DNA of 64,000 nucleotides from NCBI GenBank assembly GCA_022560615.1, contig JADFSR010000001.1, positions 186,001 to 250,000 on the forward strand. Reading direction: 5' to 3'. The DNA is from Gemmatimonadota bacterium (GTDB lineage Bacteria > Gemmatimonadota > Gemmatimonadetes > Longimicrobiales > Gaopeijiaceae). Positions 48,730-51,533 of the stretch are shown piece by piece; position 1 is the stretch's first letter; the number at the start of each line of letters is the position of its first letter. Both the position numbers and the translations under genes were made by a program. A model generated the notes under the pieces. The model made no database searches. It saw only the letters and a program-made list of their open reading frames with translations, and had not been told where the DNA came from.

Positions 48730-49815
48730 TCAATACGATGACCTTGCCTCCGCGGCTGTGCGCTCGTTCGCGAACGCGAGCACCTTCTGCTGCGCGACAG
48801 GCACCGCGAGATCGTTGGAGGCGGCGGGATCGATCCACGCCCGGCCCTCGCCTTCGGCCGGGGCGGCGACGGGCACCAGCCATGGCTCATACGTCGCGTG
48901 CAGGTGTGTGAAGCGGTGCTCCACGAGTGGGAGCGCCTCGGGACAGCCCGTCGCGACAAGTCCTCGCTCCGCTATTGTCGCGAGTACCGACTCGCGGGAA
49001 CGGGCAGCGTCCACCCGCATGTCTGGGCAAGTGTCACACTCCCCCACCTCTGGGAACGACCACAATCCGGCCAGGAGGCCCTTGCTAGGACGACGCTCGA
49101 GCAGGACACGCCCATTCGCCTCGAGCACTGCGAGCACGATTCCGCGCTTCTTCGTCTTCCTCTTCACGGGCGCGACAGGGCGCTCTTCCTGAGTGCCTGC
49201 GCCATGTGCGGCACACCACTCGGCAACCGGGCAAGCGGCGCACTGTGGCGAGCGCGGCGAACACAGAGTCGCACCCAACTCCATGAGCGCCTGGTTCCAG
49301 TCCCCAGGCCGCTCCGGGTCCAGGAGCTCAGCGGCCTTCGTGCCCAGCCAAGTCGCTGTCGGCTCCTTCTCATCGAAGAGGCGTGAGAGGACCCTGCGCA
49401 CATTGCCATCCACCGCGGGCACCGCCTCACCAAACGCGATGCTCGCCACGGCACCGGCGGTATATGCGCCAACGCCGGGAAGTGCCCTGAGGCCGGCGAA
49501 AGTGCCGGGCAAGTCACCGTCCGGGCGCTCGCGAACGAGGCGCGCGGCCCGATGGAGATTCCGAGCCCGCCGGTAGTAGCCGAGTCCCTCCCACACCTTG
49601 AGCACGTCGTCGATCTCCGCGTCGGCCAGCGCCTCGACATCAGGGAACCGCTCCAGCCAGCCGTCGTAGTAAGCAAGCACGGTTTGCACACGCGTCTGCT
49701 GCAGCATGACCTCCGACACGAGTATCCGGTACGGGTCGGACTCGCCGCGCCACGGCAGTTCTCGGCGCTCCCGATCGTAGTGATCGAGCAGCGCGTGTCG
49801 GATTGCACGGTTCAT
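48730..49815 (-). CDS. mutY: A/G-specific adenine DNA glycosylase
   Basis: This 361-residue repair enzyme removes adenine mispaired with 8-oxoguanine. Visible features are the catalytic Glu in 'SEVMLQQTRV' near residue 35, the helix-hairpin-helix 'LPGVGAYTAGAV' at about 112-123, the catalytic Asp in 'AVDGNVRRVLSR' near 136, and the [4Fe-4S] motif CSPRSPQCAACPVAEWC near 188. The C-terminal NUDIX-like domain (about 228-345), which reads 8-oxoG, is complete ('RVLLERRPSKGLLAGLWSFPEV'). Its start faces the structured element at 49837-50231. Confidence 0.96.
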   Translation of the reverse strand: MNRAIRHALLDHYDRERRELPWRGESDPYRILVSEVMLQQTRVQTVLAYYDGWLERFPDVEALADAEIDDVLKVWEGLGYYRRARNLHRAARLVRERPDGDLPGTFAGLRALPGVGAYTAGAVASIAFGEAVPAVDGNVRRVLSRLFDEKEPTATWLGTKAAELLDPERPGDWNQALMELGATLCSPRSPQCAACPVAEWCAAHGAGTQEERPVAPVKRKTKKRGIVLAVLEANGRVLLERRPSKGLLAGLWSFPEVGECDTCPDMRVDAARSRESVLATIAERGLVATGCPEALPLVEHRFTHLHATYEPWLVPVAAPAEGEGRAWIDPAASNDLAVPVAQQKVLAFANERTAAEARSSY

Positions 49816-49836: not shown

Positions 49837-49868
49837 CTAGAAGGGTGATCGGAACGGGGGGTGGGCCG
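49837..49868 (+). repeat. Left terminal inverted repeat of the 395-bp element
   Basis: The 32 bases from CTAGAAGGGTGATCGG onward match the reverse complement of 50200-50231 at 31 of 32 positions. Confidence 0.9.
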
Positions 49869-50199
49869 CGCGACCCACGCCTTGCGGCGTGGGTGCCCCG
49901 CGCTTTGCGCGCGTTCAGACAAGGAACGACGAGGAGTCGTAGCCGAGCGGGCACCGCCGCCGAAGGCGGTGGTCCGACGAGGAGAGACGATGGATCAACC
50001 GCGCGGGCACCGACGCGAAGCGTTGGTCGCAATGTGCCCAACACCAAACGTGATCATACATTACAAGTCGGTGGGTTGCGGTGCCACGGCCCCATCTCCG
50101 TCGTTGGAGCGCCTCGACGTAGCTACGGCTATGCCTTCGCCGCTCCGCCTAGGATCTGAGGCCGTGGCACCCGGGGACCCATGCGTTTAGCATGGGTGG

Positions 50200-50231
50200 C
50201 GGCCCGCCCCCCGTTCCGATCACCCTTCTAG
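50200..50231 (-). repeat. Right terminal inverted repeat of the 395-bp element
   Basis: It is the inverted partner of 49837-49868. Its outer end lies 9 bases from the ATG of the vWA gene. Confidence 0.9.
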
Positions 50232-50240
50232 TCTGATAAC

Positions 50241-51533
50241 ATGCGCTTTACGACCTACTCCAAGTACAAGGGCCGCTGGCTCGACGCGCTGAATCTCGAG
50301 GCGCTGCTGGAGACGCTCTCGGACTTTCTCATGGACGGTGGGTTCGCGGGTGGACCGCACTACCATCCGTATTGGGGCTGGTCCGGCACGGAAGACCCGA
50401 ACTCGAAGGACTCGCTCAAGAACGCACTGCTCAAGGCGCTGCTCGAGAGTGGTCAGCTCACGCCCGAGATGATCGACGAGCTGCGTGGCGAGGGTCAGGG
50501 CGACGAGGCGCTTCAGAAGCAGATCGCCGCGATGTTGGACGACCTCATTCAGAGAATGGTCGAGGAAGGGTACATCAACCTCGAGACGGGTGCTCCCCAG
50601 ATGCCCGGCGCCACATACGACGTGACGGGTCAGGGCAAGATCGACGAAGCGAAGCAGGCCGCCCAGCAAGTGCAGTTCAACCTCACGCAGAAGGGGATGG
50701 ACTTCCTGGCCTACCGGTCGCTCAAGGGACTGCTCTCCGCACTCGGCAAAGCGAGCGCTGGCGCCCACGACACCCCCCACCTCTCGACGGGCATCGAGGC
50801 CGAGGCAGCGTCGAAGCCGTACGAGTTCGGCGACACGCTGAACCTCGACATCGCGGCTACCCTCAAGAACGCGATCGAGCGCGAGGGCCTCTCGGTTCCG
50901 CTCAACCTCGAGTACGGTGACCTCATGGTGCACCAGGCGGAGTACCGTTCGTCGTGCGCGACGGTGCTCCTGCTCGACATCTCACACTCGATGGTGCTCT
51001 ACGGAGAGGATCGCTTTGCTCCCGCAAAGCGCGTCGCGCTCGCGATGTCGCACATGATCCGCACGCAGTTCCCGGGTGACTCGCTGCACGTCGTGACGTT
51101 CGGGGACAAGGCCCAGGAGATCCCACTCTCGCAGCTCGGAAAAGCGCAGGTCGGACCGTTCCACACGAATACCGCGGAAGGCCTGGAGGTAGCCCGTCGC
51201 ATTCTGGGCGCGCAAAAGAAGGACATGCGACAGATCATCATGATCACAGACGGGAAGCCGAGTGCGATGACGCTGCCCGACGGGCGCGTCTACACGAACT
51301 CGGGCGCGCTCGACCCGATGATCCTGAAGCGAACGTTTCAGGAAGTCTCCGCGTGCCGCAAGGCCGGCATCCTCATCAACACATTCATGCTCGCAAGTGA
51401 CCCCTATCTGGTGCAGTTCGTGCAGAAAGTCTCCGAGATCGCTCGTGGCAAGGCGTACTTCACCAGTACGATGACGTTGGGTCAGTACATCATGATGGAC
51501 TTTCTGAAGAACAAGCGGAGGAGGTTGTCGTGA
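50241..51533 (+). CDS. vWA-domain protein, probable partner of the ChlI/MoxR-type ATPase
   Basis: This 430-residue protein has an alpha-helical N-terminal half and a von Willebrand A domain from about residue 233. The metal-ion-dependent adhesion site reads DISHS (LLDISHSMVL) with a later 'ITDGKPSAM' segment. Proteins of this type pair with the AAA ATPase encoded at 43476-44945. No ribosome site is visible before the ATG, because the upstream 395-bp element ends only 9 bases away. The native 5' region may have been displaced, or the element's RNA may form the leader. The gene overlaps the following lipoprotein gene by 4 bases. Confidence 0.87.
   Translation: MRFTTYSKYKGRWLDALNLEALLETLSDFLMDGGFAGGPHYHPYWGWSGTEDPNSKDSLKNALLKALLESGQLTPEMIDELRGEGQGDEALQKQIAAMLDDLIQRMVEEGYINLETGAPQMPGATYDVTGQGKIDEAKQAAQQVQFNLTQKGMDFLAYRSLKGLLSALGKASAGAHDTPHLSTGIEAEAASKPYEFGDTLNLDIAATLKNAIEREGLSVPLNLEYGDLMVHQAEYRSSCATVLLLDISHSMVLYGEDRFAPAKRVALAMSHMIRTQFPGDSLHVVTFGDKAQEIPLSQLGKAQVGPFHTNTAEGLEVARRILGAQKKDMRQIIMITDGKPSAMTLPDGRVYTNSGALDPMILKRTFQEVSACRKAGILINTFMLASDPYLVQFVQKVSEIARGKAYFTSTMTLGQYIMMDFLKNKRRRLS

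Follow-up and report, generated by a model that had tools for sequence, protein, structure and literature searches.

A CTAG-inserted mobile element of Gemmatimonadota with a covarying hairpin core that recurs under unrelated ends in several phyla

The ends commonly serve to define a MITE, and the interior is regarded as debris. In the IS1182 family, MITEs of 160 and 169 bp linked to ISMac2 were described in Methanosarcina acetivorans (PMC3852290). ERIC is a TA-flanked MITE-like repeat whose hairpin is transcribed with its neighbours, and its orientation decides the effect on the joint mRNAs (PMC2229807). RUP (IS630-Spn1) and Correia/NEMIS show a TA duplication and hairpin transcripts; mobilisation of RUP in trans has been ascribed to an IS, and NEMIS is cut by RNase III or proposed as a substrate of it (PMC2229807). 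BOX elements of streptococci are modular repeats with predicted RNA structure, and in S. suis the same boxB module is found between either boxA/C or boxE/F ends (PMC3049150), which is the nearest precedent for one module within two end kinds. Finally, the GTAG- and CGTC-tagged REP/REPIN sequences are palindromes known from many phyla and frequently arranged in pairs facing head to head (PMC3733652, PMC3116915).

The element described here was found in a stretch of 64,000 nucleotides of a Gemmatimonadota genome, in the following called the window. Like the IS1182-family MITEs it is small and non-coding with ends resembling an IS1182 element; unlike them, it measures 210-430 bp across its copies, keeps its interior across end classes, and contains a duplicated core as well as hairpin cassettes. 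Compared by anatomy as given in the papers, it shares the TA flanks with ERIC, which differs by very short terminal repeats and a single end type, and the TA duplication with RUP and Correia/NEMIS, which are smaller and have one end type per family; BOX was described from streptococci alone, with another order of modules and no CTAG/IS1182 ends. REP/REPIN sequences measure 20-40 bp and lack terminal repeats with TA duplication, the GTAG/CGTC foot being a REP feature. Contrary to the usual view of MITE interiors, the interior is here the conserved part: it persists in different phyla and between unrelated ends, it covaries, and it shows a sense-strand bias.

Comparison of the copies placed the mobile unit at positions 49838-50230 of the window (393 bp, from TA to TA). 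The C before it (49837) and the G after it (50231) are part of the CTAG target and lie outside the mobile unit. The features are as follows.

49838-50230, plus strand: whole mobile element, located in a CTAG site and bounded on each side by the duplicated TA (copy comparison; same-genus empty site L196)
49838-49869, plus strand: left terminal inverted repeat, class T1 (TAGAAGGGTGATCGGAA.GGGGGG) (match to right end)
49872-49898, plus strand: cassette A, a removable hairpin (GACCCACGCC...GGCGTGGGTGCCC), present or absent between copies
49916-49999, minus strand: left core copy, diverged from the right core and carrying cassette B in the loop (sequence comparison of copies)
49949-49975, minus strand: cassette B (GGGCACCGCCGCCGAAGGCGGTGGTCC), in opposite orientation to A, absent for example in L045 and L049
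50005-50028, minus strand: cassette C (GGGCACCGACGCGAAGCGTTGGTC), absent for example in L032 and L045
50077-50174, plus strand: right core hairpin, 98 nt, with compensatory changes (RNAalifold; shuffles and slides)
50112-50139, plus strand: 28-nt motif CCTCGNCGTAGC-NNNN-GCTAYGCCTTCG, common to several phyla (motif searches)
50176-50198, plus strand: cassette F (GACCCATGCG...GCATGGGTG) (copy comparison)
50199-50230, minus strand: right terminal inverted repeat (match to left end; 20-mer search)

Positions 1-32 of the element match the inverted positions 362-393 at 31 of 32 letters, in agreement with the preliminary description of this DNA. The other structures listed there were also recovered, namely mirrored sub-terminal hairpins, two motif-plus-hairpin units (GGGCACC...GGTC) and a long-range pairing, which spans 12 bp (GGTGCCACGGCC/GGCCGTGGCACC). 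The terminal 20-mer of class T1 gave 52 matches in the own genome and none in the control. Outside the TA pairs of 80 well-bounded copies, the flanks read CTAG in 43, TTAG in 10, CTAA in 6 and TTAA in 4. The G and C directly inside the TA are invariant even where the outer flank carries a letter other than C or G, thus the target duplication is TA and not CTAG.

At the locus itself, the left neighbour is a divergent mutY gene (HhH-GPD and NUDIX_4 domains; 48730-49815, minus strand) and the right neighbour is a vWA-domain gene (50241-51533, plus strand), whose start codon follows the end of the element after 10 bases. The orthologous mutY/vWA junction of a same-genus genome (L196) is an empty site and reads GGCGGGAACGTACTCACACGCCTAGTCTGAAAACATG, compared to GGCGAGAACGTACTCACAGACC-TA-[element]-TA-GTCTGATAACATG in the window. 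It had been proposed that the right end of the element replaces the ribosome site of the vWA gene. This did not hold: the bases before the vWA ATG are nearly identical with and without the element (CACACGCCTAGTCTGAAAACATG in the empty site), so no ribosome site was replaced. Insertion of about 393 bp stretched a divergent junction of about 33 bp. As the two divergent genes start only about 33 bp apart in L196, their promoters must there overlap or sit inside each other's genes. Neither a sigma-70-like promoter nor an intrinsic terminator was found in the window copy.

A search of the own genome with the element gave 84 matches, and at least 50 copies are detectable there. With stricter pairing of the ends, 46 complete copies were obtained besides the window copy (about 47 in all). 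Together with the TA duplication and the empty site, these dispersed copies with variable flanks establish a mobile element; terminal inverted repeats, target duplication with an empty site, and dispersed non-coding copies are the three marks of a MITE, and all were found. The 46 copies fall into the terminal classes T1 (TAGAAGGGTGATCGG, 18 copies), T3 (TAGCAGCCCGTGGTAG, 13) and T2 (TAGAAGGCTGTTGAAG, 12), with T5 (TAGGGAGCCTCTG, 2) and T4 (TAGCAGGTCGCTG, 1) as rare classes. For 18 of them the nearest interior relative stands under a different end class. For instance, the T2 copy L030 and the T1 copy L050 have interiors that are 94% identical over 375 nt. In these exchanges both 24-bp ends change together, and further end types surround the same core in related genera. 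The core has moved among elements that differ in their ends.

The own genome also holds about ten solitary T1 ends (L061, L062, L065-L070, L072, L074), which measure 20-35 bp and run into unrelated sequence. They are one-ended remnants, and in several of them the TAG is perhaps the stop codon of the upstream gene.

To describe possible carriers, transposases and their ends were compared with the element. Three IS1182-type transposases (NF033551, cut-off 270 bits) were found, two in relatives (L188, 329.8 bits; L189, 267.6 bits) and one in the own genome (L192, 164.7 bits, best family). The elements of the relatives end in TAGGAAGCTGACCGGAAAGC or TAGAAGTCTGTTGAAAATCG and that of the own genome in TAGGAGCCCGTGGCAGAAA. 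The ends of L192 are near-identical to the class T3 ends of the own copies, and the T1 ends of the window copy are similar, though not near-identical, to those of L188, L189 and L192; no transposase with exact T1 ends was found in this genome. The resemblance of the ends suggests that an IS1182 enzyme mobilises the T1 elements. IS630 was considered as carrier of the window copy and rejected, as the ends of the own-genome IS630 (L092, TAGTGTAGTGTTGCAG) are unlike T1; they resemble two more distant core copies (L026 and L027). In the genomes of the distant hosts, the search for IS1182 transposases gave only one weak match.

The interior consists of a core hairpin duplicated head to head and of removable hairpin cassettes (GACC-stem-GGTGCCC). 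These cassettes occur in either orientation at few fixed places, vary in stem sequence, and are gained or lost whole. Although two open reading frames (109 and 118 aa) run across the element, the apparent GAGGAG-ATG start reads GCAG or GAAG in other copies. Since this start is not conserved and the cassettes come and go, the element is not coding, as had been concluded from the single copy. In an alignment of 34 right cores, RNAalifold proposed unprompted 28 pairs, 15 of them with compensatory changes. In our own structure, 16 of 28 pairs were changed on both sides, a count reached in none of 500 shuffles, although conversion between the arms of a palindrome can also keep them complementary. 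Pairing held in 95.9% of the cells of the 28-pair core compared to 84.9 ± 0.6% in shuffles, and it was destroyed when partner columns were slid by 1-3. The strongest mutual information of the entire alignment lies in nested standard pairs. Two unpaired internal loops, CGTTG/CGCCT and CCTCGA/GCCTTCG, are nearly fixed and among the most conserved columns. The interior is a conserved structured core rather than the remains of a transposase. The excess of pairing, the 84 genomic matches and the 46 further complete copies place the element far outside what chance would give. Rfam gave no match in the window at gathering score, and a permissive search of eight loci gave nothing on the element.

Within the core, the motif CCTCGNCGTAGC-NNNN-GCTAYGCCTTCG was found in 73 contigs of the GTDB collection, where about 0.015 were expected by chance for sequence of even composition. 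Most of these contigs belong to Gemmatimonadota; the others belong to Desulfarculaceae, Pseudodesulfovibrio, and MAGs of Actinomycetes, Lachnospiraceae, Clostridiales and Deltaproteobacteria. In these hosts beyond the own phylum (Desulfobacterota, Bacillota, Actinomycetes, Deltaproteobacteria), the motif lies mostly at the centre of CTAG-flanked elements with unrelated ends, as it does in elements of 159-184 bp. Where readable, nearly all of these ends are terminal repeats starting with TAG, the exceptions being TACTGAT and an incomplete TATTTCATGAAG. As the 28-nt motif was fixed in the search pattern, the search itself accounts for part of its conservation; the pattern did not specify the outer CGTTG...CGCCTTG boxes, the central position or the CTAG ends. 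Allowing up to two mismatches, the motif was present in 26 of 395 genomes of the own phylum (three single matches in the backward control), and with up to one mismatch in multiple copies in 7 of the 297 genomes from the Pseudodesulfovibrio phylum (control 0). One Desulfobacterota genome holds core copies of about 120 nt without terminal repeats or CTAG ends (L301, L306, L311). A scan of IMG/VR for the motif gave nothing, PLSDB plasmids and phage records gave only one weak chance match inside a gene, and a literature search for its letters turned up nothing but primers and coding sequences without relation to it.

Across copies, the element lies between operon genes and at stop codons, usually placed such that the fold would become part of the host mRNA. 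Between co-directional genes, as called by a simple codon-usage script, the core was in sense in 46 cases and in antisense in 8 (p = 1.4e-7), with splits of 21:2 in the own genome and 25:6 in other genomes. The few copies outside Gemmatimonadota show no clear orientation bias, and the window copy, located in a divergent gene pair, is uninformative on this point. In 33 cases the edge of the element supplies the TAG stop codon of the neighbour, with the core in sense in 24 and not in sense in 9. A strand test based on G.U versus A.C pairs yielded one fixed G.U, the alignment over all copies being too noisy. No promoter or terminator pattern explaining the bias was found, and intrinsic terminators were absent on both strands. 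Because CTAG is palindromic and the ends are equivalent, insertion should be blind to strand, and the bias should therefore arise after insertion. By analogy to ERIC, selection probably acts on the transcript.

Overall, we consider it likely that the element is a non-autonomous DNA transposon (MITE) with a conserved structured core that acts when transcribed, and that it is mobilised in trans by an IS1182-type enzyme. Such a transposase would recognise the 24-bp ends. The core would act as a hairpin once transcribed; insertions would occur at stop codons and between operon genes, and copies with the core in mRNA sense would be retained. The folded RNA would most likely process or stabilise the joint transcript, similar to proposals for ERIC and NEMIS, which are the closest precedents that have been tested, and so make the insertion tolerable. 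The preliminary description had offered a MITE or a structured RNA as alternatives. Its mobile half is proven and its RNA half is supported by the compensatory changes in the core hairpin and by the sense-strand bias, so that the two do not exclude each other and this reading largely holds; the proposed replacement of the vWA ribosome site is not supported.

An ordinary MITE, with the core as neutral ancestral baggage, would explain the covariation by homogenisation of the arms and the orientation bias by trivial means, e.g. Rho-dependent termination. Long palindromes are indeed usual for MITEs, and the sense strand is C-rich in its right 100 nt and G-rich elsewhere, so that the two orientations give different transcripts. 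However, the two internal loops are unpaired and yet belong to the best-conserved columns. They reappear between unrelated ends in other phyla, where neutral baggage would be expected to have decayed, and intrinsic terminators are absent from both strands. We thus regard this explanation as unlikely. An explanation specific to the locus, a cis-regulatory RNA of the vWA gene whose repetition is a chance resemblance, would fit a structured sequence that stops 10 bases short of the vWA start codon; the dozens of copies scattered next to unrelated genes and the lack of an Rfam match make it highly improbable, and the same-genus orthologous vWA gene without the element refutes it as a conserved property of the gene.

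A different alternative is that the core itself is mobile or selfish, a REP-like hairpin spreading by its own route and lodging in, or acquiring, transposon ends. The end-less Desulfobacterota copies, the many unrelated ends around one core and the 18 own-genome copies with their nearest interior relative under other ends speak for it, whereas matched terminal repeats and a TA duplication bound most copies, and the end-less copies may be decayed; on balance it seems rather improbable. A bolder reading, less likely than not, is a cross-phylum structured RNA or hairpin module that persists as a selfish unit, repeatedly changes its carrier ends, and whose transcript makes insertion into operons harmless or useful. 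If true, the module would be an RNA domain that is mobile without depending on one particular transposase. The MITE with a transcribed functional core, which we prefer, opens two tests: whether bacterial MITEs carry a functional RNA that compensates for their insertion into operons, and how an element can swap its two ends at the same time.

Some minor observations concern individual hosts. In Desulfobacterota (L294, L306), a hairpin of the GTAGGTTGGGT...ACCCAACA type lies near the core copies and is possibly a GTAG-tagged REP. In the Lachnospiraceae MAG ABMPRH_190_1 (L119, L133-L186), a 166-bp element centred on the core stands at the ends of many contigs and must therefore be high-copy there. 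The highest count seen in one genome was 49 copies of the core motif, in a Gemmatimonadota member of the same class (G340).
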